Below are positions 3,145-53,092 of a stretch of DNA of 64,000 bases, piece by piece. Source of the DNA: Modestobacter sp. VKM Ac-2985 (GTDB lineage: Bacteria > Actinomycetota > Actinomycetes > Mycobacteriales > Geodermatophilaceae); the NCBI RefSeq assembly GCF_026967925.1, contig NZ_JAPVBI010000003.1, forward strand, positions 871,070 to 935,069, written 5' to 3'. The notes below the pieces were generated by a model, which worked only from the letters and a program-made list of their open reading frames with translations, was not told the origin of the DNA and ran no database searches. Position numbers and translations under genes: made by a program. Numbering within the stretch: position 1 is the stretch's first letter; each line of letters starts with the position of its first letter.

Positions 3145-3388
3145 TGGAGATCATCCGGACAGGGAGCCTGACGACACCCCGTGATCCGCCGCCGGCGCCT
3201 TCCCGGGCACTCCAGCGGTCAGGCGGTGCGGCCCCCGTGGATCCACTCGTCCACAGGTCGGGTGCAGGCCGCCGCCCCACGGCAGCGAAGAAGACCAGAG
3301 CGAGCCAGCCCGGGGCGTCGAGGCCCCGGTGCCCTCGACGAGGGTGGCCCCGGTCCGCAGGTGGTCGCCATCGCGAGAGGATCGGCAG

Positions 3389-37187: not shown

Positions 37188-38459
37188 ATGGGACGGTCGT
37201 TGCGGGTTGCACTGCTGTCCTACCGCAGCAAGCCGCACAGCGGCGGCCAGGGCGTCTACGTCCGGGCCCTGTCCCGGGAGCTGCACGAGCTCGGGCACCG
37301 GGTCGAGGTGCTCAGCGGGCAGCCCTATCCCGAGCTGACCGACGGCGTGCCGCTGACCCGGGTGCCCAGCCTGGACCTCTACCGGGAACCCGACCCCTTC
37401 CGGACGCCCCGGCCCAGCGAGTTCACCAGCCCGATCGACGTGGCCGAGTGGCTGGCCATGTGCACCGCGGGCTTCCCCGAGCCGCTGACCTTCAGCCTGC
37501 GTGCCGCGCGGCTCCTGGGACGCCGCGCCACGGAGTTCGACCTGGTGCACGACAACCAGTCGCTGGGCTACGGGCTGCTCCAGCTGCGCCGCCGGGGGCT
37601 GCCCACCGTCGCCACGGTGCACCACCCGGTCGCCATCGACCGCGACCTCGAGCTCGCCGCGGCGACCGGGCTGCGCCGCCGGCTGACGCTGCGTCGCTGG
37701 TACGGCTTCACCAGCATGCAGGCCCGGGTCGCGCAGCGGCTCGACGGCCTGACCACGGTCTCCGACAGCTCCCGCCGGGACATCACCCGGCACATGGGCG
37801 TCCCGGCTGCCGGCGTCGAGGTCATCCCGGTCGGCATCGACCCGGAGGTGTTCCGGCCGCCGGCGGAGCCGACCGCCCGGGAGACGGCCCGGATCGTGGT
37901 GACGACCAGCGCCGACGTCCCGCTGAAGGGCCTGGTCCACCTGCTGGAGGCGCTGGCCAAGCTCCGCACGGAACAGGACGTGCGGCTCACCGTGGTGGGC
38001 ACGGCCCGGCCCGGGGGTCCCGCGGCCGAGGCGATGGACCGGCTGAGCCTGGCCGACGCCGTCCACTTCACCGGCTCGATCCCGACCGAGGAGCTGGTCA
38101 GGCTGCTGCAGACCGCCACCGTGGTCGCCGTCCCGTCGCTGTACGAGGGGTTCTCGCTCCCGGCGGTGGAGGCGATGGCCTGCGGCACGCCGCTGGTCAC
38201 GACCGACGCGGGTGCGCTGCCGGAGGTCGTCGGCTCGCACGCCGGGGTGCAGGTGCCCGCGGGAGACGTCGGCCGCCTGGCCGAGGCGCTGCGGCTGGTC
38301 CTGGACCACCCGTCGCTGCGGGACCAGCTGGGCCGGGCGGGGCGGGCCCGGGTGCTCGGCTCCTACACCTGGCGACGCACCGCCGAGCGCACGGCCGAGT
38401 GGTACGGCGAGGTGCTGGACCGACGGGCGGCCACCGACAAGGGGAGCGGCCGGTGCTGA
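37188..38459 (+). CDS. GT4-family glycosyltransferase
   Basis: A 423-residue GT-B enzyme. The N-terminal domain opens VALLSYRSKPHSGGQGVYVRALSRELHELGHRVEVLSG, the acceptor side; the C-terminal donor domain has PVGIDPEVFRPP, TSADVPLKGLVHLLEAL, the motif VPSLYEGFSLPAVEAMACGTPLVTTDAGALPEVV with the retaining EX7E pattern, and VPAGDVGRLAEAL. It transfers a sugar from an NDP-sugar at the cytoplasmic side of the membrane. It is the first gene of a five-gene operon; its stop overlaps the methyltransferase start by seven bases. Confidence 0.92.
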   Translation: MGRSLRVALLSYRSKPHSGGQGVYVRALSRELHELGHRVEVLSGQPYPELTDGVPLTRVPSLDLYREPDPFRTPRPSEFTSPIDVAEWLAMCTAGFPEPLTFSLRAARLLGRRATEFDLVHDNQSLGYGLLQLRRRGLPTVATVHHPVAIDRDLELAAATGLRRRLTLRRWYGFTSMQARVAQRLDGLTTVSDSSRRDITRHMGVPAAGVEVIPVGIDPEVFRPPAEPTARETARIVVTTSADVPLKGLVHLLEALAKLRTEQDVRLTVVGTARPGGPAAEAMDRLSLADAVHFTGSIPTEELVRLLQTATVVAVPSLYEGFSLPAVEAMACGTPLVTTDAGALPEVVGSHAGVQVPAGDVGRLAEALRLVLDHPSLRDQLGRAGRARVLGSYTWRRTAERTAEWYGEVLDRRAATDKGSGRC

Positions 38460-39211
38460 CGGTCGACTACGACCTGCTCGACGTCCGGCCGGGCATGCGG
38501 GTCCTGGACCTGGGGTGCGGCGAGGGCCGGCACGCGTTCGAGGCCTACCGGCGAGGGGCCTCGGTGCTCGCGGTCGACTGGGGGCAGCAGGAGGTGGCCA
38601 CCACCGCCGAGTGGCTGGGTGCGATCGCCGCCGCCGGCGAGGCACCGGCGGGTGCGTCGGCCGGTGTGGCCCGCGGTGACCTCCGTGCCCTGCCGGTGCC
38701 CGATGCGAGCGTCGACCGCGTGATCGCCTCCGAGGTGCTCGAGCACATCGTCGACGACCGCACCGCCCTGGCCGAGATCGCCCGGGTGCTCAAGCCCGGC
38801 GGTCGGGTGGCGGTCAGCGTGCCCCGGTACGGCCCCGAGCGGATCTGCTGGGCGCTCTCGGACAGCTATCACGCCAACGAGGGCGGTCACATCCGCATCT
38901 ACCGGGGTGACCAGCTGTGGGAACGGCTCGCCGCGGCCGGGCTGCGACCGACCGACACCCACCACGCCCACGCCCTGCACGCCCCGTTCTGGTGGCTCAA
39001 GTGCGCGGTCGGCGTCGACCGGGACACCGCGCTCGTCCGCGCCTACCACCGGCTGCTCGTCTGGGACCTGGTGCACCGCCCGTGGCTGACCCGCACCGCC
39101 GAGCGGCTGCTGGACCCCCTGCTCGGCAAGAGCCTGGTCCTCTACGCCGACAAGCCGGCGCCCACCGCCGGTGGGACGGCCGCCGCCGACGGGGCGCTCG
39201 CGAGTGCCTGA
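38453..39211 (+). CDS. Class I SAM-dependent methyltransferase of the glycosyltransferase operon
   Basis: A 252-residue methyltransferase. MRVLDLGCGEGRHAFEAYRRGASVLAVDWGQQEV holds the SAM motifs, then VPDASVDRVIASEVLEHIVDDRTALAEIARVLKPGGRVAVSVP, all in the Methyltransf_11 arrangement. The C-terminal third (ALHAPFWWLKCAVGVDRDTALVRAYHRLLVWDL) is helical and aromatic-rich, which suggests a hydrophobic or lipid-linked substrate. The GTG start lies within the end of the GT4 gene, with GGGGAGC before it; its stop overlaps the next start. Confidence 0.88.
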   Translation: MLTVDYDLLDVRPGMRVLDLGCGEGRHAFEAYRRGASVLAVDWGQQEVATTAEWLGAIAAAGEAPAGASAGVARGDLRALPVPDASVDRVIASEVLEHIVDDRTALAEIARVLKPGGRVAVSVPRYGPERICWALSDSYHANEGGHIRIYRGDQLWERLAAAGLRPTDTHHAHALHAPFWWLKCAVGVDRDTALVRAYHRLLVWDLVHRPWLTRTAERLLDPLLGKSLVLYADKPAPTAGGTAAADGALASA

Positions 39212-40262
39212 GTCCGCACTGGCGCTGCCCGAGGTCCCCGGCGTGCTCACCGCCGACCAGCTGCGCCAGACCGTCGCGGCGATCGCCGCCGAGCAGTCCG
39301 CCGACGGCGCCCTGCCCTGGTTCCGCGGTGGCCAGCTGGACGCCTGGGACTCGGTCGAGGCGGCGATGGCGCTGGACGTCGGCGGGGAGCACGACCGCGC
39401 GGTCGCCGCCTACGCCTGGCTGGCCGGGCGGCAGCGCACCGACGGCTCCTGGGCCGTGGAGTACCGGGACGGCGCCGCCACGGCCCCGGGGACGGAGAGC
39501 AACCACGCCGGCTACCTCGCGGTGGGCGTCTGGCACAGCTGGCTGAGCACCGGCGACGCCGGGCTGGTCGACCGGCTGTGGCCCACCGTGCGCCGGGCGC
39601 TGGACCTCGTGACGACGATGCAGCTGGCCGGCGGGGCGATCGGCTGGGCGCTGCGTCCGGACGGCACGCCCGACGACACAGCGCTGGTCACCGGGAACGC
39701 GAGCCTGTTCCAGGCGCTGCGTGCCGGGATCGCCCTGGCCGACCTGGTCGGTTCGGCCCAGCCGGACTGGGAGCTGGCCGCCGCCGATCTCGGCCGGGCG
39801 CTGCGCGACCGGCCCGAGGCCTTCGCGGACCGGTCGCGGTACTCGATGGACTGGTACTACCCGGTGCTGGCCGGTGCGCTCACCGGTGCGGCGGCCGAGG
39901 TGCGACTGGCCGCAGGCTGGGACACCTTCGTCGTCCCCGGGCTGGGGGTGCGGTGCGTCGCCGACCGGCCGTGGGTGACCGGCGCGGAGACCTGCGAGCT
40001 GGCGCTGGCGCTCGCCGCGGCCGGCCGGCCGGATGACGCGATCGAGCAGCTGGCCGCCATGCAGCACCTACGGGCCGAGGACGGCTCGTACTGGACCGGC
40101 CTGGTGTACGCCGACGACGCCCGCTGGCCGGTCGAGCGAACCACCTGGACGGCGGCGGCCGTGGTGCTGGCTGCGGACGCCGTCGCCGGCACCGGCCCGG
40201 CCGCCGCGCTGTTCGCCGACCCGGCTGCGCTGGACCGGTCCGTGACGGAGGCGCTGGGTTGA
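39204..40262 (+). CDS. Terpene-cyclase/prenyltransferase-fold protein
   Basis: A 352-residue alpha/alpha-barrel protein. Repeats such as IAAEQSADGALPWFRGGQLDAWDSVEAAMAL, LAGRQRTDGSWAVEY and MQHLRAEDGSYWTGL are QW-like repeats of the squalene-cyclase/prenyltransferase superfamily. The DxDD or DCTAE motifs of true triterpene cyclases are not seen, so an alternative role (binding a polyprenyl group, glycan processing or a different cyclisation) is likely. In this operon it is the least understood member. The GTG at 39204 overlaps the methyltransferase stop by eight bases. Confidence 0.75.
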   Translation: MPESALALPEVPGVLTADQLRQTVAAIAAEQSADGALPWFRGGQLDAWDSVEAAMALDVGGEHDRAVAAYAWLAGRQRTDGSWAVEYRDGAATAPGTESNHAGYLAVGVWHSWLSTGDAGLVDRLWPTVRRALDLVTTMQLAGGAIGWALRPDGTPDDTALVTGNASLFQALRAGIALADLVGSAQPDWELAAADLGRALRDRPEAFADRSRYSMDWYYPVLAGALTGAAAEVRLAAGWDTFVVPGLGVRCVADRPWVTGAETCELALALAAAGRPDDAIEQLAAMQHLRAEDGSYWTGLVYADDARWPVERTTWTAAAVVLAADAVAGTGPAAALFADPAALDRSVTEALG

Positions 40263-41149
40263 CGCCCCGCCCGGTCGGGCACGATCACCGGGTGCCCACA
40301 GACCTCAGCAGCGATGCCTCCGCGGTGACCTGCGTGGTGGCCAGCCGCAACCGCCGCGACGACCTGCTGGCCAGCCTCCCCCGACACGAGGCCCCGGTGG
40401 TGCTGGTCGACAACGCCTCCACCGACGACACGGTGGCCGCGGTCCGGGCCGCCCACCCGGAGGTCACCGTCGTCGCCCTGGACCGCAACACCGGCGCCGT
40501 CGCCCGCACCGTCGGCGTCGCCCGCGCGGGCACGCCGTTCGTGGCGTTCACCGACGACGACTCCTGGTGGGCGCCGGGCGACCTGGCGCGCGGGGTGGAG
40601 ATCATGCGTGCGCACCCGCGGCTGGGGCTGCTGGCCGCCCGGATCCTGGTGGGCTCCGCCGAGGAGCTCGACCCCGTCTGCACCGAGATGGCCGACAGCC
40701 CGCTGGGCACCGAGCCCGACCTGCCGGGCCCGTCGCTGCTCGGGTTCGTCGCCTGCGCCGCGCTGGTGCGCACCGAGGCGTTCACCGCCGTCGGCGGCTT
40801 CGACCGGGTCGTGCGCTTCCCCGGCGAGGAGGAGCGGCTGGCCCTGGACCTGGCGGCGGCCGGCTGGGGCCTGGCCTACGTCGACGAGGTCACCGTGCAC
40901 CACCACCCCTCCCCCCACCGGGAGCCCAGCAGCGCCCGGCAGGCGGGCATCTGGCGCAGTCGCGTGCTCACCGCGCTGATGCGCTACCCGCTGCGCGACG
41001 TCGCCGGCCAGCTGGTCCGGGTCGTGCGCGCCGGGCGCCCGGGCTGGCGCGGGCTCGCCGGGGCGGTCCCCCGGGTCCCCGCCGCCCTGCGGAACCGGCG
41101 CGTGCTCCCCCGGCACGTGATGGCCGGGGTCCGGGAGCTCGCGGCATGA
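40259..41149 (+). CDS. GT2-family glycosyltransferase (first of a tandem pair)
   Basis: A 296-residue inverting GT-A enzyme. SAVTCVVASRNRRDDLLASL, VLVDNASTDDTVAAVR and TPFVAFTDDDSWWAPGDL (the DDD metal/nucleotide motif) lie in the first 100 residues; VGGFDRVVRFPGEEERLALDLAAAGW carries the acceptor-side acidic motif. Translation probably begins at a TTG: GGAGG lies seven bases before it and it overlaps the previous stop (TTGA). A GTG at 40292 is the alternative. Similar in length and motifs to the next gene, from which it must have arisen by duplication or vice versa. Confidence 0.87.
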   Translation: MTPRPVGHDHRVPTDLSSDASAVTCVVASRNRRDDLLASLPRHEAPVVLVDNASTDDTVAAVRAAHPEVTVVALDRNTGAVARTVGVARAGTPFVAFTDDDSWWAPGDLARGVEIMRAHPRLGLLAARILVGSAEELDPVCTEMADSPLGTEPDLPGPSLLGFVACAALVRTEAFTAVGGFDRVVRFPGEEERLALDLAAAGWGLAYVDEVTVHHHPSPHREPSSARQAGIWRSRVLTALMRYPLRDVAGQLVRVVRAGRPGWRGLAGAVPRVPAALRNRRVLPRHVMAGVRELAA

Positions 41150-42072
41150 CGAGCGGATCTGCTGCCGGAGCCGGTGGTCCCGACCCCCGCGTCGCCGTCG
41201 TCGTCATCACCCACGACCGCCGGGACGAGCTGCTGCTGGCGCTGTCCCGGCTGCGGGAGCTGCCCGAGCAGCCGCGGGTGGTCGTCGTGGACAACGGCTC
41301 GGCCGACGGCACCGCCGAGGCGGTCCGCACCCGGCACCCGTGGGTCGACCTGATCGCCAGCCCGGAGAACCTGGGCGCGGTCGGCCGCAACCTGGGCGTG
41401 GCCCGGCTGGACACCCCCTACGTCGCCTTCTGCGACGACGACACCTGGTGGGACCCGGGTTCACTGCGCACCGCCGCCGACGCGCTCGACGCCCACCCCC
41501 GGCTGGCCGTCGTCACCGCCCGGATCCTGGTCGAGCCCGGCGGCGTCGAGGACCCGATCGTCGCCGAGCTGCGTGACTCCCCGGTCGTCGGCGCCGACTG
41601 GCTGCCCGGGCCGGCGCTGGGCAGCTTCCTGGCCGGTGCCAGCGTGCTGCGGCGGGAGGCGTTCACCGAGGTCGGCGGCTTCTCCGAGCGGCTGTGGCTG
41701 GGTGGGGAGGAGGAGCTGATGGCCGGCGACCTGGCCGCGGCCGGCTGGGAGCTCTGCTACCTGCCCACGATCAGCATCCACCACCAGGCCAGCACGGCCC
41801 GGGACCCGCACAAGCGGAGGCAGGACGGCATCCGCAACACCTTGTGGACGACGTGGCTGCGCCGCCCCCTCCGGCCCGCGCTGCGACGCACCGTGCACCT
41901 GCTGCGCACCGTCCCGCGCGATCGGGTCACCGCCCGGGGGCTGCTCGCCGCCGCCCGCGGGCTGCCCTGGGTGCTGCGCGAGCGACGGGTGCTCCCCCCG
42001 CACGCGGAGGCGCGGTTCGCCGCCCTGGAGCGCGCCCAGCGCAGCTCCACCGCCCGCCGCTACGTGAGCTGA
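41146..42072 (+). CDS. GT2-family glycosyltransferase (second of a tandem pair)
   Basis: A 308-residue inverting GT-A enzyme, paralogous to the gene before it. Motifs in order: VAVVVITHDRRDELLLALSRL, VVVVDNGSADGTAEAVRTRHP, ENLGAVGRNLGVARLDTPYVAFCDDDTWWDPGSL, VGGFSERLWLGGEEELMAGDLAAAGWELCYLP. A C-terminal basic tail (RRPLRPALRRTVHLLRTVPRD) may touch the membrane. The ATG overlaps the previous stop (ATGA). Last gene of the operon; convergent with the TPM gene, 16 bases between stops. Confidence 0.9.
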   Translation: MTSGSAAGAGGPDPRVAVVVITHDRRDELLLALSRLRELPEQPRVVVVDNGSADGTAEAVRTRHPWVDLIASPENLGAVGRNLGVARLDTPYVAFCDDDTWWDPGSLRTAADALDAHPRLAVVTARILVEPGGVEDPIVAELRDSPVVGADWLPGPALGSFLAGASVLRREAFTEVGGFSERLWLGGEEELMAGDLAAAGWELCYLPTISIHHQASTARDPHKRRQDGIRNTLWTTWLRRPLRPALRRTVHLLRTVPRDRVTARGLLAAARGLPWVLRERRVLPPHAEARFAALERAQRSSTARRYVS

Positions 42073-42088
42073 GCGACGACCCGACCGG

Positions 42089-42697
42089 TCAGCGCTGCCG
42101 GGCCGGTGTGGCGTCGGACTCCTGGTCCTCCGGGGAGCCGCGCCGGGAGACGAGGTAGAAGGCGGTCAGCACGCCGACGAGGACGACCACGACCACGGCC
42201 GTCCTCGTCGACGACCACGACGGCATGGCCGGGTCGACGACATCGGTGGACTGGAGGCCGTCGGCCAGCGCCACCACCGCGCCGGACCAGTCCCCCTCGA
42301 CGATCGCCGGTTCCACGTCCTCGCTCATCAGGGTCCGGACAGCGTCCGGCTGCAGCGTCGACTCGTCCCCGACCCACCACTCGTACTCGGCTGCGTCCGT
42401 CGCGACGGCCAGCAGCACCTCCTCGGCCCCGAGCTCGGACTCCGTCGCGGTCAGCTCGGCCCAGTCGGCGTCGTCCTCCTCGCCGTCGAAGGAGGGGACG
42501 AAGACGGTGGACAGGACGATGCCGGTCTGGGACCGCAGTTCGGCCACGGCGTCCTCGGCCGCGGCTGCGCCCGCCCCGAGCACACCGGCCTCGTCGGTGA
42601 TCGGCGCGTCGACGGCGACCGGCTGCTCCGCCATCGCGATCCCGGTGGGCAGCGCCCCGGTGATCAGGAGGGCCAACAAGGCGATTCGCCTGCGCAC
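42089..42697 (-). CDS. TPM-domain (YgcG-like) exported membrane protein
   Basis: A 202-residue protein with a signal peptide (cleavage after about GIAMAEQ), a TPM domain (VDAPITDEAGVLGAGAAAAEDAVAELRSQTGIVLSTVFV, later LLAVATDAAEYEWWVGDEST) facing outside, one membrane helix near 165-185 (TAVVVVVLVGVLTAFYLV) and a short acidic tail. TPM domains are linked to photosystem repair in plants and to unknown envelope roles in bacteria. The GTG at 42697 is chosen for AGAGGAA six bases upstream. Confidence 0.75.
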   Translation of the reverse strand: MRRRIALLALLITGALPTGIAMAEQPVAVDAPITDEAGVLGAGAAAAEDAVAELRSQTGIVLSTVFVPSFDGEEDDADWAELTATESELGAEEVLLAVATDAAEYEWWVGDESTLQPDAVRTLMSEDVEPAIVEGDWSGAVVALADGLQSTDVVDPAMPSWSSTRTAVVVVVLVGVLTAFYLVSRRGSPEDQESDATPARQR

Positions 42698-42712
42698 ACA
42701 CACTTCCTCTGG

Positions 42713-42746
42713 GTAGATGACCGGACGTCGTAGATGACCGGACGTC
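42713..42746. repeat. 17-base tandem duplication upstream of the TPM gene
   Basis: GTAGATGACCGGACGTC is repeated exactly twice with no gap, ending 16 bases before the TPM start codon on the minus-strand side. Possibly a recent slippage duplication in the leader. Confidence 0.7.
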
Positions 42747-42869
42747 GTCGGTGGGGCGGCGGCTCGGGCGCGGCGCAGGCGCCGGGCGGCCGAACAGATC
42801 ACGGACCTCTGAACGATCATGTTGGCTCACGGACTGCGCCGCACCGGGAGACGGGCCATTCTGTCGACA

Positions 42870-42949: not shown

Positions 42950-43669
42950 TCAGCGCCCGACCGGGGCTCCAGCGGCGGCCACGTCGGCCAGCGCGCGGAC
43001 GACAGGTGCAGCCGCACCGGCGACCGCGACCAGCACCTCTCGCGCCGGGTCGCACCAGTCGGTGAGGTACAGCCCGCGGTACCGGCTCACCGCCCGCCCG
43101 GCCCGGTCGCGGCGCTCGGTCAGCCGGGACAGGTCGACCCGTCCCATCCCGGCCAGCGTCGTCGTCCCGGTCTTCACCAGGCACTCCTTGCGCGCCCAGT
43201 GCCGGAGGGCGAGCAGCGGCGCGTCCACCGCCGACCGCACCTGTTGCTGCTCGGCCGGGGCCAGCCCGGGGAACCGTCCGGCTGCCTGACCCTCCGCCGG
43301 GAACTCCTCGACGTCCACGCCCACCGGGCGCCAGGCGGCGGCGGCGACCACCGCACCCCGACTGTGGGACCAGCTGACGTGCACGTCGGGGAGGTCGACC
43401 AGGGACGGGCGCCCGTGCCCCGCCGTCCTGCAGTCGGTGCACCACTGGTGCACCGCCAGGTCGGTGAGGGGCCGTCCGGTCAGCGCCGCAGCGCACCGGC
43501 GCACGAGCAGGTGCGCGGCGACGTAGGCGGCCCGGTCCGCGGGGTCCTGCAGCGCGGCGCTGCGCGCCCGTTCGGCCGCGCCGAGCAGGCCGACGTCGGC
43601 GCCGGCGAGCACCTCGTCCGGGCTGGCCACCACGACCAACGGCGCTCGACGCAGGCCCGTGCGCACCAT
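42950..43669 (-). CDS. 4'-phosphopantetheinyl transferase (Sfp type)
   Basis: A 239-residue enzyme that loads the phosphopantetheine arm of CoA on carrier proteins. The Sfp-type motifs are present: HVSWSHSRGAVVAAAAW near 98, PVGVDVEEF at 116-122 (Asp119 and Glu121 bind magnesium) and LRHWARKECLVKTG with the WxxKExxxK pattern (Trp158, Lys161, Glu162, Lys166). GGAGG precedes the ATG at 43669. It is divergent from the NRPS operon whose carrier domain needs exactly this modification, so it is the likely dedicated activator. Confidence 0.92.
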   Translation of the reverse strand: MVRTGLRRAPLVVVASPDEVLAGADVGLLGAAERARSAALQDPADRAAYVAAHLLVRRCAAALTGRPLTDLAVHQWCTDCRTAGHGRPSLVDLPDVHVSWSHSRGAVVAAAAWRPVGVDVEEFPAEGQAAGRFPGLAPAEQQQVRSAVDAPLLALRHWARKECLVKTGTTTLAGMGRVDLSRLTERRDRAGRAVSRYRGLYLTDWCDPAREVLVAVAGAAAPVVRALADVAAAGAPVGR

Positions 43670-43914
43670 CCCAGCCTCCGATCCCCCCGCCAGCGCTGCC
43701 CGCACAACCCCTCACTCACCGGAGTCGGTCGACCGCAAAAGGAATTTGTTTGCGCCTTCGCGTTTGAGCATTCCTCGACGGAGCGCATCTATTCGAACAC
43801 GTTGCGTGAAAGTTGAACAAAGAACTGTGAGTTCACCCAGAACGGGTGGCATGACCTCTTGTTTCTCCTTAGCGTCGGTCGTGATTCCGGATTGTCAACT
43901 GTGAGAGCGAGTTC
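43670..43914. promoter_or_regulatory. AT-rich divergent promoter region of PPTase and NRPS genes
   Basis: These 245 bases are clearly richer in A and T than the flanks, particularly 43735-43840. GAACT-gtg-AGTTC (43822-43834) is an inverted repeat within it. Both divergent promoters must lie here; no single -35/-10 pair is convincing enough to name. The NRPS ATG has only a modest GAGAG site. Confidence 0.5.
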
Positions 43915-46900
43915 ATGTCGACGGAGAGCGAGAGCCAGGACTTCATCCCGGGCTTCACCACCCCCAGGAACGCGGGAGTCGACTCCGCCGCCCGACGCTT
44001 CTCGTTCTCCCAGAACGTCGCGGGCACTCCGCCTCGACCGCAGCAGGAGACCACCCGGCTGTCCCAGTACTTCGAGCGGACGTGCGACGAGCACCCCTCG
44101 GCGACGGCGCTCGAGTGCGACGGCGAGCGGCTGAGCTACACCGACCTCGACCAGCGGGCCAACCGCCTGGCCCACCACCTGCTGGGGCTCGGCATCCGGG
44201 CCGGGGCCCGGGTCGGGATCCTGCTGGACCGCTCGGTGAACACCTACGTCGCCCTGCTCGCGGTGACGAAGACGGAGGCGACCTTCGTCCCGATCGACCC
44301 GTCGGCCCCGGCGGACCGCGTGCAGTACCAGGCCGAGGACTCCGACCTCGCGCTGGTGGTCACCACCACCTCGTTCGCCGCGACCTGCAGCGGGCTCCCC
44401 TGCCCGCCGCTCTTCCTGGACGAGCTGGGCGGCGACCTCGCGGCCGCCCCGAGCTGGCGCCCTGAGCTGGAGACCGGCGGCGACCCGGTCTGCTACATCA
44501 TCTACACCTCGGGCTCCAGTGGCCGCCCCAAGGGCGTGGAGATCGCCCAGTCGAGCATCTGCAACTTCATCGGCATCGTGCCGGTCCTGTACGGCGTCGA
44601 GTCGACCGACCGGGTCTACCAGGGCATGACGATCGCCTTCGACTTCTCCATCGAGGAGATCTGGCCGACCTGGGCCGTGGGCGCGACCCTCGTCGCCGGT
44701 CCCACGGACGGGCGTCGGGTGGGCTCGGGGCTGGCCGACTTCCTGGCCGAGCAGGAGATCACGATGATCTACTGCGTCCCCACCGTGCTCGCCACGCTGG
44801 ACCGCACCCTCCCGCTGATCCGCACGGTGAACGTCGGCGGCGAGGCCTGCCCGCGGGAGCTCGTCGACCGTTGGGGCCCCGGTCGCCGCATCCTGAACAC
44901 CTACGGCCCGACGGAGACCACCGTCACCTGCACGATGGCCGAGCTCTACCCCGGCAAGCCGGTGACGATCGGGCGGCCGCTGCCGACCTACCGCGTCACC
45001 CTGCTGGACGACGAGCGTCGGCCGGTCGGCAACGGTGAGATCGGCGAGATCTGCGTCGGCGGCCCGGGGGTCGCCCTCGGGTACGTCAACCGCCCCGACC
45101 TCACGGCCGACCGCTTCCTCCCCGACCCGCACGGCTACCCCGGTGAGCGGCTGTACCGCACCGGCGACCTGGGGCGCTTCCTCCCCGACGGCGAGCTGGA
45201 GTACCTCGGCCGCGCCGACAGCGAGGTGAAGGTCCGCGGCCACCGTGTCGACCTCCAGGAGATCGAGGGCATGCTCCTGCAGCACGACCGGGTCACGGCC
45301 GCGGTCGTCACGCTGCTGCCCGCGCCGGAGAGCGGTGGAGAGCTCGCCGCCTACGTCATCCCCCGCCCCGGGGACGACGCCACGGACCTCGTGTCCGAGC
45401 TGCACGACCTGCTCCTGGAGCAGCTGCCGCCCTACATGGTCCCGGCCTTCCTCGACGTCGTCTCCACCATCCCCATGCTGCCCAGCGGAAAGGCCGACCG
45501 GAAGGCGCTGCCCGACCCGCAGGGCCCGCGCCTGATGCGGGACACCGGGGCCTACGTGCCGCCGGACACCCCCGTCGAGGCCTGGGTGGCCGGGATCTGG
45601 GAGGAGGCGTTCGGCCTGCCCGGCGAGTCGGTGTCGGTCGAGGCCAACTTCTTCGACGCGCTGGGTGGCCACTCGCTGCTCGCCGCACGGATCATCTCCA
45701 CGATGCGCTCCAGCGACCTGGGTGCCGGGTTGTCCATCCTCGAGCTCTACCGGCACCCGACGGTCCGGTCCCTCGCCGCGCACCTGGAGGACGACGCCCG
45801 GTCCGGGGACGCAGCCGCCGAGCCGCACCTGCGCCGCCCGGTGCAGTCCTCCCGCCGCCGGGTGACCGCCTTCGGGTCGGCCCAGTTCGCCACCTTCTAC
45901 GGCATCGTCCTGCTGTTCCTGTTCCCGGCCGCGCTGGTCTACGCGCTGAACGACGGGGAGCCCTCGACCGCCCTGGTCGTCCAGCTGGCCTTCGCCCTGC
46001 CGGCGTTCTTCCTCGTCGTCCGCTGGGTGCTCCCGGTGGTCGGCTCGCGGCTGCTGTCCCGGGGACTGCAGCCCGGTGACCACCCGCTGTGGGGCTGGAC
46101 CCACCTGCGGGTCTGGACCGTGCAGAAGCTGATGGTGATCTCCCCGCTGACGGTCCTGAGCGGATCCCCGTGGGCGGCCACCTACCTGCGCCTGGCCGGC
46201 GCACGGATCGACGACGACTGCCACATCGGCACGTCGGAGATCAGCCTCCCGGCGATGCTGGACATCGGCCCGGGCGCGACCCTCGGCTACGGCACCCAGC
46301 TGCACGGCCACCGGGTCGCCGACGGCGTCCTCTCCCTCGGCGTCGTCTCCGTGGGTGCTCGCGCGACCCTCGGCTCGCAGTCGCTGCTGGAGGCCGGCTC
46401 GGCGGTCGAGGACGGGGGCGTCCTGCGTGAGCAGTCGCTGCTGCCCGCCGGTGAGATCGTCCCCGCCGGTGCGACCTGGGCCGGTTCGCCGGCCCGCGCC
46501 TCGACCGAGCCGGCCGACCCGGTCCTCGGGTTGATGACCAGCTGCTCCGCTGCACCCACCACCTGGACCCGTCAGCTGCGGACCGGCTTCGCCGCCGGCA
46601 TCACACTGCTGGAGCTGCTGCCCTTCTTCGTGCTGCTCCCCGTGGTCGCGCTCGTCTGGTGGGTGCTGCTGACCTTCGGGCTGGTCCCCGCCATCATCGC
46701 CACCGCGCTCTCCGGCCCGGTCTTCGTGGCTGCCTCGTGCGCGCTCATCCTGGGCTGCCGCCGGCTGGCCCTCACGGAGACGCCGCCGGGCGTCCACCAC
46801 GTGCGCTCCAAGCTCGGGCTGGAGAAGTGGCTGGGCGACAAGCTGCTGGAGATGAGCCTGATGCTCAACAACAGCATGTACGCGACGCTGTACACCTCCA

Positions 46901-48084
46901 TCTGGCTGCGGGCCATGGGGACCAAGGTCGGCCGTGGCGCCGAGGTCTCCACCATCGCGAACATCGACCCCGACCTGCTCACCCTCGGCGAGGGCAGCTT
47001 CGTGGCGGACATGGCCAGCGTCGGCAGCGCCACCTACGCCAACGGGCACGTGGCCTTCCAGGTCACCGAGGTCGGTGCCCGCGCCTTCGTCGGGAACGCC
47101 GCCTACATCCCGTCGGGTTCGCACCTGGGCGACGGCTCGCTGATCGGCGTCCGGAGCGTGCCGCCGACCGGAGGCGTGCCGGCGGACAGCTCGTGGCTCG
47201 GCTCCCCGCCGATCAACCTGCCGCGCCGGGAGATGTACGAGGAGTACACGGAGGCGGAGACCTTCACGCCCAGCCGCCGCCGGGTGCGCGCCCGCTATGC
47301 CATCGAGTTCCTGCGCATCGTGCTGCCCAGCTCGATCCTGGCCCTGGCGATGTTCGGCACGCTGTACGGCGCCTCGGTGCTCGCGGCGAACCAGGGCGTG
47401 CTCGTCACCGTCGTGGTGGCGCCGCTGATCGCACTGCTCTCCAGCCTCGCCGTCGTGGTGGGGGTCGCGCTGCTCAAGTGGGTCCTCGTCGGCCGGTACA
47501 AGCCGCGGGTGGAGCCGCTGTGGAGCGGATTCGTGCGCCGCACCGAGTTCGTCACCGGCATCTACGAGGCGGCTGCCGTCCCGGCACTGCTGACCTGGCT
47601 CACCGGTACGCCGCTGCTCGGCCCGCTGCTGCGGCTGTACGGGGCGAAGATCGGCCGGCGGACGCTGATCGACACCACCTACCTCACCGAGTTCGACCTG
47701 GTGACCCTGGGCGACGACGTGTCCGTGGGCACCAACGCCTCGCTGCAGACCCACCTGTTCGAGGACCGCGTGATGAAGATGGACCACGTCATCATCCGGG
47801 ACCGGGCCAGCGTCGGGGACAAGTCCGTCGTCCTCTACGGCTCCACCGTGGAGGAGGACGCCACCATCGCCGACCTCTCCCTGGTCATGAAGGGCGAGGT
47901 GCTGCCCGCCGGCACCGCGTGGAGCGGCATCCCGGCCCAGAAGGTGGGCCGCGCCCCGGCCAGCACGCTGCCGGTCCGGGACGACCCGGCGCTCGACACC
48001 ACTGCCCGTGACAACCCGGCGGTCGACAACCCGACCACCGAGAGCCGGCAGCTCAGCACCGCATCGAACAGCCGGGAAGGGTGA
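43915..48084 (+). CDS. Pls/PosA-type membrane non-ribosomal peptide synthetase
   Basis: A 1389-residue single-module synthetase. The adenylation domain (about 45-540) has YIIYTSGSSGRPKGVEI, NTYGPTETT, YRTGDLGRFLPDGELEYLGR and LPSGKADRKALP (Lys526); the carrier domain has DALGGHSLLA (Ser587 takes phosphopantetheine). Then come three units, each of a membrane-helix pair (about 658-710, 892-945, 1132-1193) followed by a hexapeptide-like soluble C domain (about 755-865, 985-1100, 1240-1345). This is the plan of epsilon-poly-L-lysine synthetase, which releases amino-acid homopolymers of variable length at the membrane. The residues lining the amino acid pocket include Glu247, which would suit a basic amino acid. 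Its stop overlaps the DUF418 gene. Confidence 0.9.
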   Translation: MSTESESQDFIPGFTTPRNAGVDSAARRFSFSQNVAGTPPRPQQETTRLSQYFERTCDEHPSATALECDGERLSYTDLDQRANRLAHHLLGLGIRAGARVGILLDRSVNTYVALLAVTKTEATFVPIDPSAPADRVQYQAEDSDLALVVTTTSFAATCSGLPCPPLFLDELGGDLAAAPSWRPELETGGDPVCYIIYTSGSSGRPKGVEIAQSSICNFIGIVPVLYGVESTDRVYQGMTIAFDFSIEEIWPTWAVGATLVAGPTDGRRVGSGLADFLAEQEITMIYCVPTVLATLDRTLPLIRTVNVGGEACPRELVDRWGPGRRILNTYGPTETTVTCTMAELYPGKPVTIGRPLPTYRVTLLDDERRPVGNGEIGEICVGGPGVALGYVNRPDLTADRFLPDPHGYPGERLYRTGDLGRFLPDGELEYLGRADSEVKVRGHRVDLQEIEGMLLQHDRVTAAVVTLLPAPESGGELAAYVIPRPGDDATDLVSELHDLLLEQLPPYMVPAFLDVVSTIPMLPSGKADRKALPDPQGPRLMRDTGAYVPPDTPVEAWVAGIWEEAFGLPGESVSVEANFFDALGGHSLLAARIISTMRSSDLGAGLSILELYRHPTVRSLAAHLEDDARSGDAAAEPHLRRPVQSSRRRVTAFGSAQFATFYGIVLLFLFPAALVYALNDGEPSTALVVQLAFALPAFFLVVRWVLPVVGSRLLSRGLQPGDHPLWGWTHLRVWTVQKLMVISPLTVLSGSPWAATYLRLAGARIDDDCHIGTSEISLPAMLDIGPGATLGYGTQLHGHRVADGVLSLGVVSVGARATLGSQSLLEAGSAVEDGGVLREQSLLPAGEIVPAGATWAGSPARASTEPADPVLGLMTSCSAAPTTWTRQLRTGFAAGITLLELLPFFVLLPVVALVWWVLLTFGLVPAIIATALSGPVFVAASCALILGCRRLALTETPPGVHHVRSKLGLEKWLGDKLLEMSLMLNNSMYATLYTSIWLRAMGTKVGRGAEVSTIANIDPDLLTLGEGSFVADMASVGSATYANGHVAFQVTEVGARAFVGNAAYIPSGSHLGDGSLIGVRSVPPTGGVPADSSWLGSPPINLPRREMYEEYTEAETFTPSRRRVRARYAIEFLRIVLPSSILALAMFGTLYGASVLAANQGVLVTVVVAPLIALLSSLAVVVGVALLKWVLVGRYKPRVEPLWSGFVRRTEFVTGIYEAAAVPALLTWLTGTPLLGPLLRLYGAKIGRRTLIDTTYLTEFDLVTLGDDVSVGTNASLQTHLFEDRVMKMDHVIIRDRASVGDKSVVLYGSTVEEDATIADLSLVMKGEVLPAGTAWSGIPAQKVGRAPASTLPVRDDPALDTTARDNPAVDNPTTESRQLSTASNSREG

Positions 48085-48086
48085 CC

Positions 48087-49427
48087 GTGTCCCAGACCAG
48101 CGAGCACCGCAACATCGTGGCCCCACTGCCCTCAGAGCCCGGTCCCACCGTGGCGGGGCTGCCGCACAGCTGCGCACCCGCACCGGCCGGCGACGTCGCC
48201 GGCACCCCGGCCGAGGGCGCCCCGGCGAAGGCAGCGCCCCCGCGCCCGCGCGCACGGCTGATCGGGATCGACGCCGCCCGCGGCGTCGCGCTCGTGGGCA
48301 TGATGTCGGTGCACCTGATCCCCGCGGCCACCGACGCCGGCGACGTGTCCCTGGCGTGGTTGCTCTCCAACGGCAAGGCCTCCGCACTGTTCGCCCTGCT
48401 CGCCGGCGTCGGCATCGCCTTCTCCACGGGCCGGCGCCGCCCGCCCCGCGGTCTGGCCTGGCGGGCCGCCGCGCTGTCCCTGCTCACCCGGGCCGTGATC
48501 ATCGCGGCGATCGGCCTCGCGCTCGGGTACGTCGTCGGGACCGGCGACGCCGCGGTGATCCTGGCCTACTACGGGGTGCTGTTCGCCCTGGCCATCCCGT
48601 TCCTGCGGCTGTCGACCCGCGGGCTGGTGGTCGCGGCGGCGATCGCAGCGCTCGTCATGCCGCTGGTCAGCTACGCGCTGCGGCTGGAACTGACGCCGGT
48701 TCCCGAGGCCAACCCGACGCTGACCGACCTGGTCACCGACCCCCTGGGGCTGCTGCTCCAGCTGACCCTCACCGGGGTGTTCCCCGCCCTGGTCTGGATC
48801 GCCTACCTGCTGGCCGGCATGGCCGTGGGCCGGGCGGTGCTCGCCTCGCGGCGGGTCGTCTCCCAGATCACGCTGATCGGCCTGGCGCTCGCCCTGGCGT
48901 CCAGCCTGCTGTCGATGCTGCTGCTGACCGTCGGTGGCCGGGGCGAGGCCCTGCGCCTCGACGCCGTGCAGAGCATGGACTTCGAGCTCTACCAGGACAC
49001 CCTGACCTGGGGGCCGTCGGGAACGACGCCGACCAACAGCCCGTGGTGGCTGGTGGCCACCGCGCCGCACAGCGGCAGCCCGCTGGACCTCGCCTTCACC
49101 ATCGGGGTGGCGCTGGCCGTGCTGGGCGCGTGCCTGCTGCTCGGCCGGGGCCTGCAGCCGCTGCTGCGCCCGCTGGCCGCCGGCGGCAGCATGACCCTGA
49201 CCCTCTACAGCGTCCACCTGCTGCTGGTCGCCGCACCGTTCCCCCGCGGCGTGCTGAACCTGGTCGTGCAGGTGGCCGTGCTGCTGACCTTCGCCCTGGT
49301 CTGGAACCGGAGCCATCTGCGCGGTCCGCTGGAGGAGCTCGTCTGGCGGGCGACCGATGCCGTACGACGGAAGGTGCTGAGCTCCCCGGGAGCGCATCGG
49401 GCGCCGACCACCACGACCGGCAGCTGA
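48087..49427 (+). CDS. DUF418/DUF1624-type membrane protein
   Basis: A 446-residue protein with about ten membrane helices. After a Pro/Ala-rich N-terminus, ARLIGIDAARGVALVGMMSVHLIPAA near 57 is the DUF1624 (heparan-glucosaminide acetyltransferase-like) opening; the C-terminal half with LLRPLAAGGSMTLTLYSVHLLLVAAPF is the DUF418 part. Proteins of this fold may transfer acyl groups across or at the membrane. GGGAAGG lies six bases before the GTG at 48087; the first GTG (48081) overlaps the NRPS stop but is too close to that site. Its tight linkage suggests modification or export of the NRPS product (inference). Confidence 0.83.
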   Translation: MSQTSEHRNIVAPLPSEPGPTVAGLPHSCAPAPAGDVAGTPAEGAPAKAAPPRPRARLIGIDAARGVALVGMMSVHLIPAATDAGDVSLAWLLSNGKASALFALLAGVGIAFSTGRRRPPRGLAWRAAALSLLTRAVIIAAIGLALGYVVGTGDAAVILAYYGVLFALAIPFLRLSTRGLVVAAAIAALVMPLVSYALRLELTPVPEANPTLTDLVTDPLGLLLQLTLTGVFPALVWIAYLLAGMAVGRAVLASRRVVSQITLIGLALALASSLLSMLLLTVGGRGEALRLDAVQSMDFELYQDTLTWGPSGTTPTNSPWWLVATAPHSGSPLDLAFTIGVALAVLGACLLLGRGLQPLLRPLAAGGSMTLTLYSVHLLLVAAPFPRGVLNLVVQVAVLLTFALVWNRSHLRGPLEELVWRATDAVRRKVLSSPGAHRAPTTTTGS

Positions 49428-49429
49428 GC

Positions 49430-50134
49430 GTGTTCGGGCGTGGCGGTGACCGGCGACTCGCGCTGGTCTACCGCGGGCCGGCCTCCACGGACGGGTGCCC
49501 GGAGGCGGTGGCCGAGGCGCTGGCGCGGAGCCGGTGGGACCTCGACGTCCGCTTCGTCGGGGCCAAGGAGCGGCTGGCCCTGGAGCCGGCGGTGCTCGCC
49601 TCCGCCGTGCTCTACGCCCAGCCCGGCGGCGGCGAGCTGAAGAAGGCCTGGCGCAAGCTCCGCAAGCAGGCCCCGGCGATCCAGGAGTACGTCGCCGGTG
49701 GCGGCCGCTACCTGGGCTTCTGTCTCGGCGGTTACCTCGCCGGCGAGACCCCCGGCTTCGGGCTCCTGCCCGGGGACACCGACCAGTTCGTCTCCTCGCC
49801 GGGAGCGTGGCCGACCCACACCGACGACGCGGTGGCCACGGTCGTCTGGGCCGGCGTCCGCCGCCAGGTGTTCTTCCAGGACGGCGCCTGGTTCGACCTC
49901 GACCCGGCCCGCGGGCCGGCCGAGGTGCTGGCCACCTACGAGAACGGGCTGCCCGCGGCCGTGGTCGCCCCCTTCGGCGCGGGCGCGGTCGGCGTCGTCG
50001 GCCCGCACCCCGAGGCGACCCCGGACTGGTTCACCGACGTCGGGCTGCCCGTGCCCGCGGACCTGCGGGCCGACCTCACCCAGGACCTCGTCGACCGGGT
50101 GATGCGGATCGGCCAGGTCTCCCGGACCCGCTGA
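49430..50134 (+). CDS. BPL_N (amidotransferase-like) protein
   Basis: A 234-residue protein with the class I amidotransferase-like fold of the biotin-protein-ligase N-terminal family. LALVYRGPASTDGCPEAVAEAL begins the domain, VLYAQPGGGELKKAWRKL and GRYLGFCLGGYLAGETPGFGLLPGD (Cys98 at the nucleophile elbow) follow, and VVGPHPEATPDWF near the end holds a possible His. No biotin-ligase domain is attached. It starts two bases after the DUF418 stop and is the third gene of the NRPS operon; it may cleave or amidate the product. The assignment of a reaction would be guesswork. Confidence 0.82.
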   Translation: MFGRGGDRRLALVYRGPASTDGCPEAVAEALARSRWDLDVRFVGAKERLALEPAVLASAVLYAQPGGGELKKAWRKLRKQAPAIQEYVAGGGRYLGFCLGGYLAGETPGFGLLPGDTDQFVSSPGAWPTHTDDAVATVVWAGVRRQVFFQDGAWFDLDPARGPAEVLATYENGLPAAVVAPFGAGAVGVVGPHPEATPDWFTDVGLPVPADLRADLTQDLVDRVMRIGQVSRTR

Positions 50135-50207: not shown

Positions 50208-51389
50208 TCAGCCCTCGTCGAGGAAGCCGGCCACGATCGTGCCGAACTGCCCGGACCGGTCGTGGCCCACCCCGGCCGGGGCGACGAGCCGGGTGTTGAG
50301 GCCCTGGGCCGAGTACCACTGCTGCCCGGCCTGCGCGCCCCAGGGCCCGGAGAGCGCGTTGAACCCACCGCCGGCGCCGGTGTCCTGGGCGCCGGTGTCC
50401 CAACGCAGGGCGACCTTCCCCTTGACGTCCGCGGGGATGCTGGCCCGCCCCGCCGGTGCGCCACCGCCACCGATCGCGATGACCCCGCCGCCGCCGGACC
50501 AGAGCGCCGGGTGGGCGGGGAAGACGAAGCGGGTCGCCGCCTGTGCGCCCGAGGAGTAGCCGGCGAACCAGAGCTCACCGGCGCCGTACTGGGCCTTCGC
50601 GTCGGCGATCAGCGCCGCGAGGTACGTCGCGTACCCGGCAGCGTCCCCCCGCTCCCAGCACTGGCAGGAGCGGTTCGGGCTGAACGGCGCAACGAGCACC
50701 ATGTTGCGCGCCTTCGCCACGGCGGCCAGCCCCTTCGAGCCACCGATCGCGTACGACTGGGTCGGGTTCTCGACGCCGTACTCACCGGTGCCGTCGGCGT
50801 ACACCAGCAGGCCGATCGGCTTGGCCGGGTCGATGCCCTCGGCGAAGACCCGGTAGTCCGCGGTGTAGCCGGCAGCGCTGAAGGACGTCGTCCGGTTGGT
50901 CAGGGCCCCCGTGGGCGCGGGGCGCGCCGGGGTGCTGGCGACCGGGGCCGGAGCGGGAGCGGGAGCGGCGACCGGCACGGGAGCCGGGGCCGGGGCCGGG
51001 GCCGGGGCCGGGGTGCTGGCGACCGGGGCTGGTGCCGGAGCCGGAGCGGGCGCCGGGGCCGGGGCCGGGGCGGGGGCCGGGGCCGGGGCGGGGGCCGGCG
51101 CCGCGGTCGAGCGAGCCGGCGCCTGGGTGCCCCGACGTGCCCGGTCGGCGGACCGCGCCGCCTTCTCGGCCCGGGCCGCCTCGAGCTGGACCGCGGTCTC
51201 CGCCTGCGGCTGCTCGCTGCTCGCCGGCGATGCGGCGGGCGAGGTGTCCGCGACGTTGGTGGCGCCGAACACGGCGCTCACGCACAGGAACGCGGCGGCC
51301 ACGCCGGCGCGGGCACGCCGGCCCCGGCGGGTGGAGAGGGCGGACAGGAAGCGGCGGCCACGGCCGCTCCGGGTGTGACGTCTGGACAA
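50208..51389 (-). CDS. Secreted esterase-like protein with long Pro-Ala linker
   Basis: A 393-residue exported protein. A twin-basic N-terminus and signal helix (about 24-45) lead to a charged segment, then an unusual linker of about 60 residues made almost entirely of Pro-Ala pairs, interrupted by VASTP. The C-terminal domain is alpha/beta hydrolase-like: GLLVYADGTGEYG, LVAPFSPNRSCQCWERGDAAGYATYLAAL, the elbow GYSSGAQAATRFVF (Ser) and a late GVGHDRSGQF with a His. Probably a wall-spanning esterase. The TTG at 51389 is chosen because GGAGGGG lies seven bases upstream; an ATG 40 codons earlier has no site. Confidence 0.78.
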   Translation of the reverse strand: MSRRHTRSGRGRRFLSALSTRRGRRARAGVAAAFLCVSAVFGATNVADTSPAASPASSEQPQAETAVQLEAARAEKAARSADRARRGTQAPARSTAAPAPAPAPAPAPAPAPAPAPAPAPAPVASTPAPAPAPAPAPVPVAAPAPAPAPVASTPARPAPTGALTNRTTSFSAAGYTADYRVFAEGIDPAKPIGLLVYADGTGEYGVENPTQSYAIGGSKGLAAVAKARNMVLVAPFSPNRSCQCWERGDAAGYATYLAALIADAKAQYGAGELWFAGYSSGAQAATRFVFPAHPALWSGGGGVIAIGGGGAPAGRASIPADVKGKVALRWDTGAQDTGAGGGFNALSGPWGAQAGQQWYSAQGLNTRLVAPAGVGHDRSGQFGTIVAGFLDEG

Positions 51390-51652: not shown

Positions 51653-53092
51653 ATGCGCGCGGGTCGTCGACGGGCCGCGGCCACTGCGCTCGTCGGGGCC
51701 GTGCTCCTCGCCGGCTGCACGACGGGCGGCTCCCCCGATCCGGAGCCCCCGCCCACCGCCGCTCCGGAGGCCGAGGGCTGGCCCGAGCCGTGGGCCGACC
51801 GGCCGGTGGTCGACCTGCGCTTCGACGTCGCCGAGGACCTGGAGACGGTCGCCGGCGAGGAACGGGTGGTCTTCACCCCCGACCTGAACACGTGCGTGCT
51901 GGTCTTCCGCTCCTGGCCCAACAAGCCGGCCACCGCGCGGGCGGGCAGCGGGCTGACCGTGTCCGAGGTGCGGGTCGACGGCGAGCCGGCCGAGGCGCGC
52001 GACGTGCCGGCCGGGGCACCCGAGAGCGCGCCCGCCGGCACGCTGCTGGAGGTGCCGCTGGCCGAGTGCGCCGAACCCGGCGACGAGATCACCGTCGACC
52101 TCGAGTTCGAGGTGGAGCTCGGTCCGGACGTCAACGAGCGGGTCGGCACCTCCACCGACGTGGACGCCGCCTGGTTCGCCACCGCCTTCCCGCTGCTGGC
52201 CTGGGAGCGCGGGCGGGGGTGGGACCGCGGCCCGGCCGTCGCCGTGGCCGGCGAGATGGCGGTGAGCGAGGACTTCGAGCTCGCCTCGCTGGAGGTGGTC
52301 GCGGACTCCCGGTACGAGGTGCTCGGCACCGGCGAGGCGGTCGGCACCTCCGACGGCCCCGGCGACACCACGGTCCACGAGTTCACCGCCCCCGCGGTCC
52401 GGGACGTCGCGGTCACCGTCGGGGAGCTCGACGTGCAGTCGGCCGAGATCGGCGGCGTCCGGGTCCACGTGGGCCTGGACGAGGGCGTGGCGGAGGCGAC
52501 CACGGCGGAGTGGCTGGCCCAGCTCGAGTCGTCGATGGCGGCCCTGGTCGAGCTGCTGGGCCCCTTCCCCTACTCCGACCTCTGGGTCTCGGTGCTGTCC
52601 AGCCAGACCAGCGGCATCGAGTTCCCCGGCGCGATCCAGTTCGGTGACGTCGACCCGGAGTTCCGCCGCGCGCTGGTGACCCACGAGCTGGCGCACATGT
52701 GGCTCTACGGCCTGGTCGGCAACAACCAGGGCGTGCACCCCTGGCTGGACGAGTCGTTCGCGACCTTCGCGCAGATGGTCGTGCACGGCGAGGGCTCGGC
52801 CAGCATGGCCGACCTGCCCGGGTCCCGCCGGCACGGCGTGGGCGAGCCGATCCAGTACTGGGAGCAGTTCCGGCGGCCCAGCTCGGCCTACTACGACACC
52901 GTCTACATCGCCGGCGGGACGACCCTGGTCGACGCCCGGACCCAGGTGGGCGCCGAGGCGTTCGACGCGGCGCTGCGGGAGTACCTGCGCACGAACGCCT
53001 GGTCGATCGCCACGCCGGAGGACGTCCAGGAGGCCTTCGCCGAGCTGCCCGAGGTGCTCGACGAGCTGGAGGAGGTCGGCGCCCTGCCCTGA
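51653..53092 (+). CDS. M1-like zinc peptidase lipoprotein
   Basis: A 479-residue lipoprotein: lipobox LLAGC (about 18-22), a Pro-rich linker, a beta-rich N-terminal domain and a gluzincin domain with VTHELAHMWLYGLVGNNQGVHPWLDESFATF, which contains the HExxH and the downstream Glu zinc ligand. The N-terminal GAMEN signature of true M1 aminopeptidases appears only as TSGIEFPGAIQFG. It is lipid-anchored outside the cell. GGAGGGG precedes the ATG. It lies divergent to the secreted esterase. Confidence 0.87.
   Translation: MRAGRRRAAATALVGAVLLAGCTTGGSPDPEPPPTAAPEAEGWPEPWADRPVVDLRFDVAEDLETVAGEERVVFTPDLNTCVLVFRSWPNKPATARAGSGLTVSEVRVDGEPAEARDVPAGAPESAPAGTLLEVPLAECAEPGDEITVDLEFEVELGPDVNERVGTSTDVDAAWFATAFPLLAWERGRGWDRGPAVAVAGEMAVSEDFELASLEVVADSRYEVLGTGEAVGTSDGPGDTTVHEFTAPAVRDVAVTVGELDVQSAEIGGVRVHVGLDEGVAEATTAEWLAQLESSMAALVELLGPFPYSDLWVSVLSSQTSGIEFPGAIQFGDVDPEFRRALVTHELAHMWLYGLVGNNQGVHPWLDESFATFAQMVVHGEGSASMADLPGSRRHGVGEPIQYWEQFRRPSSAYYDTVYIAGGTTLVDARTQVGAEAFDAALREYLRTNAWSIATPEDVQEAFAELPEVLDELEEVGALP

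Follow-up and report, generated by a model that had tools for sequence, protein, structure and literature searches.

A Pls-type synthetase paired with HGSNAT_cat and BPL_N proteins in an actinobacterial clade, probably for a short cationic polyamino acid

The gene set in Modestobacter sp. VKM Ac-2985

We analyzed a 64,000-nucleotide stretch (the window) of the 4.7 Mb genome of Modestobacter sp. VKM Ac-2985 (contig NZ_JAPVBI010000003.1, positions 871,070 to 935,069), in which the gene for a single-module nonribosomal peptide synthetase (NRPS) is followed by genes for a membrane protein and a BPL_N protein and is accompanied by a divergent gene for an Sfp-type phosphopantetheinyl transferase (PPTase). 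A first-pass annotation had read these genes as an operon built around a homopolymer synthetase of the Pls (epsilon-poly-L-lysine synthetase) type, and all four were found where it had placed them. The synthetase gene (43915-48084, + strand, 1389 amino acids (aa)) ends in a stop codon (48082-48084) that overlaps the GTG start at 48081 of the membrane protein gene (48081-49427, + strand, 448 aa) by four bases. The latter gene stops at 49427, and after a two-base gap the BPL_N gene begins with a GTG at 49430 (49430-50134, + strand), which bore out the proposed close linkage.

The synthetase matched TIGR02353 of NCBIfam, the model that the first-pass annotation had named, with 570.2 bits against a curated cut-off of 423.1, confirming its assignment to the Pls/PosA family. 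It follows the plan of that family, with an adenylation (A) domain (aa 53-526, 44071-45492; AMP-binding 250 bits, AMP-binding_C 38.1 bits), a carrier (T) domain (aa 557-624, 45583-45786; PP-binding 47.3 bits) and a polymerising region of three tandem transmembrane/hexapeptide units (aa 673-1341, 45931-47937, placed by the TIGR02353 span, hydropathy and unit-to-unit identity), all on the + strand. The three units, also predicted earlier, were confirmed by hydrophobic stretches at about aa 652-711, 890-954 and 1128-1195 and by pairwise identities of 27.0, 30.5 and 34.2%; one Hexapep match scored 33.7 bits (cut-off 27). No classical condensation or thioesterase domain was among the five Pfam families listed for the protein. 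The serine of the T-domain GGHS motif (S587) and the pocket Asp and Glu (D243 and E247) were invariant in both a 12-row and a 14-row alignment. The specificity pocket reads DFEYNGTVTK, compared with DAES(I/V)GTVVK in the eight lysine-type loci of the order (Mycobacteriales).

The divergent gene (42950-43705, - strand, start at 43633 or 43705) was confirmed as an Sfp-type PPTase by an ACPS (PF01648) match of 28.6 bits (cut-off 25) and by the GVDxE and RKECLVK motifs, in which G105, V106, D107, E109 and R148-K154 were invariant in 10 rows. Only two ACPS-family matches were found in the genome, the other being an AcpS-sized frame of 139 aa on a different contig, so the window PPTase is likely the only Sfp-type enzyme of the genome. 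It adjoins the synthetase in 11/11 Geodermatophilaceae rows of the tree described below, which are all of the clade loci that have one, and it would likely serve the synthetase. Within the intergenic region between the two genes (43706-43914), an alignment of seven congeners contained conserved blocks near the synthetase start.

The membrane protein had been labelled DUF418, and here the first-pass annotation was not borne out. No DUF418 match was listed in Pfam at E<=0.1, while HGSNAT_cat (PF07786) scored 42.7 bits (cut-off 22). The predicted structure (predicted local distance difference test (pLDDT) 71.7) gave Z 24.3 to human HGSNAT and 15.6 to GWT1, with the next row at 6.7. HGSNAT_cat and DUF418 may be remotely related families. 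The predicted fold is like that of human HGSNAT and GWT1, but sequence identity is only 14-16% and 12-13% respectively, and a profile search against PDB sequences returned chance-level matches only. D64, R67 and H78 were kept in 54/57 HGSNAT_cat frames, H330 in 56/57 and H379 in 55/57; the remaining frames had gaps from cut or broken copies at these residues and not a single substitution. We describe the protein as a predicted HGSNAT/GWT1-type transmembrane acyltransferase-like protein.

The BPL_N protein (PF09825, 53.1 bits, cut-off 24.2) is predicted, from a model of modest confidence (pLDDT 66), to have a class I glutaminase-type fold. Its best structural match was the Pdx2 glutaminase (Z 15.7), and HisH, gamma-glutamyl peptidase 1 and SpuA were matched as well; the fold is alike and the catalytic Cys, His and Glu (Cys98-His193-Glu195) are kept, but the identity to these enzymes is only 9-20%. 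Against PDB sequences, the BPL_N profile found a weak match to HisH (E 0.026) in which the catalytic Cys is aligned. All three residues were kept, each in 80/81 BPL_N frames with gaps only in pieces of a single broken locus, and they were invariant in a separate 10-row alignment. For both partner proteins, the frames counted were chosen independently of the motifs that contain these residues.

Conservation within and outside the clade

In 59 genomes searched, that of the window included, 25 matched the synthetase at E<=1e-100, a number that includes ordinary NRPS-like and lysine-type proteins. In all ten relatives whose synthetase is near-complete and 70-97% identical, the frames of synthetase, HGSNAT_cat and BPL_N had no inner stop, and the gene order PPTase, synthetase, HGSNAT_cat, BPL_N, Ala-Pro-linker protein and M1 peptidase was kept; the synthetase of Modestobacter sp. 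VKM Ac-2984 was 97% identical to that of the window. In the window, the M1-type peptidase (51653-53092, + strand; PF01433, 43.6 bits, cut-off 27.7) has a lipoprotein-like signal (ATG at 51653, LLAGC). The probably secreted protein with the Ala-Pro-rich linker (50208-51302, - strand) had zero Pfam matches at E<=0.1 when its 433-aa frame was searched, and a TPM-domain protein (42089-42820, - strand; PF04536, 48.2 bits, cut-off 22.1) is a further conserved neighbour.

A wider sample came from a scan of named genomes, taken as the best 80 of 586 confirmed stretches. Its query alignment (A5) contained seven rows fetched through BPL_N, so that the sample leans towards the clade of the window. A FastTree phylogeny of 108 synthetases, from which 11 rows were left out as near-copies, duplicates, fragments or broken, placed the window synthetase in an actinobacterial clade of 54 rows with support 100. 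Beside these 54 synthetases we found BPL_N in 45 loci, HGSNAT_cat in 43, the M1 peptidase in 23, the Ala-Pro-linker protein in 12 (11 Geodermatophilaceae and one Dermatophilus metagenome-assembled genome (MAG)) and TPM in 11, all Geodermatophilaceae. Fourteen of the clade rows had been fetched through BPL_N, and all 14 have both partners. The first-pass annotation had named a lack of conservation of the two partners beside the synthetase as a ground for refuting its proposal, and this test did not refute it: when the rows fetched through BPL_N are set aside, 40 clade rows remain, that of the window among them, and BPL_N was present in 31/40 and HGSNAT_cat in 29/40.

Outside the clade, 53/54 rows were without BPL_N and HGSNAT_cat within 6 kb; 16 of these 54 rows had less than 3 kb of sequence on one side, and the partner profiles were built from proteins of the window's family, so remote homologues could be missed. 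The earlier claim that the partners are not part of classical poly-lysine loci also held, in 8/8 lysine-type loci of the order and in 31/32 lysine-type rows overall; the exception, in L116, is also the one row outside the clade that has BPL_N nearby. Searching from the other side, BPL_N of the window's type was found in 30/397 genomes of the order, and both synthetase and HGSNAT_cat adjoined it in 27/30. These 27 include G003, where only the end of the synthetase lies at a contig end and parts of the same gene set are split over two contigs, and G065, where the frames are broken; in the latter (L093, genome 74% complete) synthetase, HGSNAT_cat and BPL_N are each split over several frames, being either broken or poorly assembled. 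TIGR02353 itself occurred in at least 171/397 genomes of the order (E<=1e-60, two candidates scored per genome), a figure that was not used for the clade count. Taken together, these genes form a real and conserved set that differs from the classical loci examined, and HGSNAT_cat and BPL_N are linked to this clade and were rarely found beside synthetases outside it.

The window has a single BPL_N copy in which no export signal was seen, and at least two BPL_N matches were present in 19/54 clade loci. Export-like signals were called by an in-house hydropathy rule and not by a signal-peptide program. By this rule, the farther copy had a hydrophobic N-terminal stretch after Arg/Lys in 15/15 loci with two readable copies, many with a twin-arginine-like or lipobox look, while the nearest copy had such a signal in 0/43 loci read (28 with one copy read and 15 with two). 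An exported second copy makes BPL_N fit a hydrolase better than an ammonia donor. The M1 peptidase gene lay beside the synthetase in 22/26 one-copy loci versus 0/19 loci with at least two BPL_N copies (Fisher's test p 4e-9, a value that ignores relatedness and was not relied on). In classical loci the PldII peptidase degrades the polymer (PMC8117764). The exported BPL_N may thus stand in for M1 in part of the clade, in which case BPL_N would be a polymer hydrolase.

Several further loci were noted. In Streptomyces pinistramenti (L116:8956-19537), genes for a DFEY-type synthetase, BPL_N, a Pls of the lysine type (DAESIGTVVK) and an M1 peptidase follow one another on the same strand, and two polymers may be made from this one locus. 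Geodermatophilus pulveris seemingly has a second HGSNAT_cat and a second TPM copy near its locus (L099:4249-5826 and 3328-4263). DFE- or DFD-type synthetases were also seen in cyanobacteria, Singulisphaera, a Methanothrix MAG and a Nitrososphaerales MAG (L113, L122, L131, L132, L134 and L155), and none of these six loci had a nearby HGSNAT_cat or BPL_N match. Upstream of the window's gene set, a run of five genes (37188-42072; by reading, glycosyltransferase-like, methyltransferase-like and others) is kept in close relatives. It recurs within Geodermatophilaceae and not in the BPL_N loci of other families, apart from weak methyltransferase-like matches in two other-family loci without a synthetase.

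Pocket and gene supply for the monomer

Clade pockets have the form DFE(Y/C)xGTVTK, while lysine-type rows read DAES and PosA-like rows DME at the start of the code. In work on the delta-poly-L-ornithine synthetase PosA, the pocket Asp and Glu were described as the ligands of the two amines, and the residue at position 2 was proposed to set the chain length of the monomer, with Ala for lysine, Met for ornithine and Phe for 2,4-diaminobutyrate (DAB) or 2,3-diaminopropionate (DAP) (PMC10522769). The Phe at position 2 of the window pocket therefore points to a short monomer, DAB or DAP. The beta-poly-L-diaminopropionate synthetase PDAPs of Streptomyces albulus PD-1, which we compared by description only, has the same architecture (PMC4668381) and also Phe at this position (PMC10522769). 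PosA itself (code DMEHNGTVSK) shares 7/10 pocket residues with the window; at the other three positions the window has Phe for Met, Tyr for His and Thr for Ser. In the tree, Sphingomonas rows of the DMEHN type are far removed from the window clade.

The gamma-poly-DAB synthetases (PldA, PMC8117764; PddA, PMC8225329) belong to the same family and likewise have Phe at position 2. The sister of the window clade consists of five rows with a DAB-type setting, with support of 98 for the pair and 100 for each group; the window thus falls beside the DAB-type clade and not inside it. The setting was assigned from a diaminobutyrate aminotransferase (DAT) found by hidden Markov model (HMM) in two rows (L129 and L168), from a DapF-like protein, also by HMM, in L136, and by clustering or reading in the others; aspartate kinase neighbours were assigned by reading. 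L136 is Amycolatopsis anabasis, which has been named as having a PddA homologue (PMC8225329). These rows differ from the window in their pocket, DFECLS(A/V/C)V(S/T)K, and have neither HGSNAT_cat nor BPL_N.

DAT and ornithine cyclodeaminase (OCD)-type families supply DAB and DAP in characterised producers. In the window's genome, no DAT (TIGR00709) scored over the cut-off, beside the synthetase or elsewhere (best 134.7 versus 401.6 bits), matches to the SbnA family stayed below the cut-off (best 251.8 versus 349.95 bits), and the OCD family (PF02423) had zero matches. One of the two supply proteins of PDAPs is an OCD homologue (PMC4668381), a family without a match here. The DAT and OCD searches also covered 25 of the 29 genomes with the locus (G001, G003, G015 and G065 were left out): DAT was over the cut-off in 7/25, and OCD was matched in 17, of which 16 were over the cut-off, while 8/14 control genomes were also OCD-positive.

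A gene resembling dimethylarginine dimethylaminohydrolase (DDAH) and arginine dihydrolase lies close downstream in 16/54 clade loci (9/40 of those not fetched through BPL_N), adjoining the synthetase, BPL_N or M1 gene. Against PDB sequences its best matches were arginine dihydrolases (about 120 bits, versus 51 for DDAH); against NCBIfam the Mtb-type DDAH came first with arginine dihydrolase behind, all below the cut-off. This neighbour could supply ornithine. In the window's genome the gene had no match, in a search made without a positive control. In S. albulus, ornithine and serine are the precursors of DAP (PMC4668381), so an ornithine supply does not decide the monomer. We rate ornithine and DAB/DAP as about equally probable.

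Proposed function and its alternatives

The product of the locus is probably a short cationic polymer built from a small amino acid. The fuller reading is a cationic poly-diamino-acid system that brings its own enzymes for modifying and degrading the polymer; we hold it at slightly short of an even chance, and for the product and the enzyme actions everything is inference. The divergent PPTase would load phosphopantetheine onto the T domain, and the A domain would activate a small diamino acid, with the Asp holding the alpha-amine and the Glu the side-chain amine (roles taken from PosA, PMC10522769). As in characterised family members, the three membrane units would form a short isopeptide polymer by linking the monomers at the side-chain amine. 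The HGSNAT/GWT1-type protein may carry acyl groups from cytoplasmic coenzyme A to polymer amines at or across the membrane, which would lower the charge of the polymer. The amidase-like BPL_N may cleave amide bonds in polymer that stays behind in the cytoplasm, for self-protection or length control, and outside the cell the M1 lipoprotein, or the exported second BPL_N in other lineages, would cut the polymer likewise. Extended to a widespread actinobacterial N-acylated polyamino acid with masked charge, with amidase-like enzymes on both membrane sides destroying stray polymer and an exported amidase having replaced M1 in part of the clade, the proposal becomes doubtful.

Several observations weigh against the cationic poly-diamino-acid system or parts of it. 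The pocket is DAB/DAP-like while the gene supply, with no DAT over the cut-off and no OCD match, hints at ornithine, so the two point to different monomers. BPL_N was not found in 9/54 clade loci (L128, L104, L123, L106, L112, L121, L110, L148 and L109) and HGSNAT_cat not in 11/54; L112 ends two bases past the synthetase frame and L104 and L121 within 3.7 kb, but the remaining six loci without BPL_N extend farther. Three genomes (L095, L096 and L097) have BPL_N without an adjoining synthetase or HGSNAT_cat; they share the genus code g42, of which two other genomes have the full locus. BPL_N also adjoins one lysine-type row (L116_13670), whose locus contains a clade member as well. The fold of BPL_N, modelled at modest confidence, fails to separate a hydrolase from an amidotransferase, and its best-ranked structures are glutaminase subunits. 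The M1/BPL_N copy pattern came down to three to four independent changes on the tree, which calls for no more than four changes in BPL_N copy number, with p 0.5 in a sign test of independent pairs, and the idea of replacement is weakened by this relatedness of the loci. The M1 peptidase lies beside lysine-type synthetases in 8/8 loci of the order but in only 9/32 lysine-type rows overall, and is thus not a partner of the synthetase family in general.

Four alternatives were weighed. An envelope-bound conjugate, in which the polymer or oligomer stays anchored in membrane or wall and is remodelled by BPL_N and M1, would agree with the membrane nature of both synthetase and HGSNAT/GWT1-type protein, with the glycosyltransferase-like genes upstream, and with the lack of a dedicated exporter among the neighbours as read, although no transporter search was made. 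The polymers of characterised family members are free, however (PMC4668381, PMC10522769), and the upstream genes recur in Geodermatophilaceae but not in the loci of other families, and we consider this unlikely. A short defined oligomer or conjugate tailored by the partners, in place of a polydisperse homopolymer, seems distinctly unlikely: the polymerising region is fully retained with many invariant columns, even though acyltransferase and amidase-like partners were not described for homopolymer loci in the literature searched. To our knowledge, no member of the window's clade has been characterised, which leaves room for such a product.

It is improbable that BPL_N acts on a Pls-type polymer as a true amidotransferase, amidating its end or releasing it. 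The glutaminase subunits at the head of the structural matches, with HisH further down, and the almost universal Cys, His and Glu favour this reading; but no synthase partner was recognised beside BPL_N, and every second copy readable for a signal (15/15) appears exported. Glutamine-driven amidation outside the cell is unlikely. An ordinary epsilon-poly-L-lysine locus plus accessory genes, disfavoured already, is highly improbable: the family, the A-T-three-membrane-unit plan and an adjoining M1 relative are shared with the lysine-type loci of the order, but the window pocket lacks the Ala at position 2 of the DAES type, the identity is 31-36%, the clade is different, and the eight loci have neither HGSNAT_cat nor BPL_N.

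The kind of synthetase is already known. Neither its pairing with HGSNAT_cat and BPL_N nor the exported second BPL_N and its M1 pattern was found in the literature searched, and TIGR02353, six pocket codes, and HGSNAT with NRPS or BPL-N gave no literature match; an N-acylated-polymer system with amidases on both sides was not found either, in searches in which no query named acylated polymers. Few cationic polyamino acids are known; these compounds find use in food preservation and are active against fungi and viruses (PMC4668381, PMC8117764). The clade predicts polymers that have not been isolated so far, and its acyltransferase and amidase-like partners provide genes with which charge masking, self-protection and the control of chain length could be tested. 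The disagreement between the pocket and the gene supply offers a sharp test of the power of the pocket code to predict the monomer.

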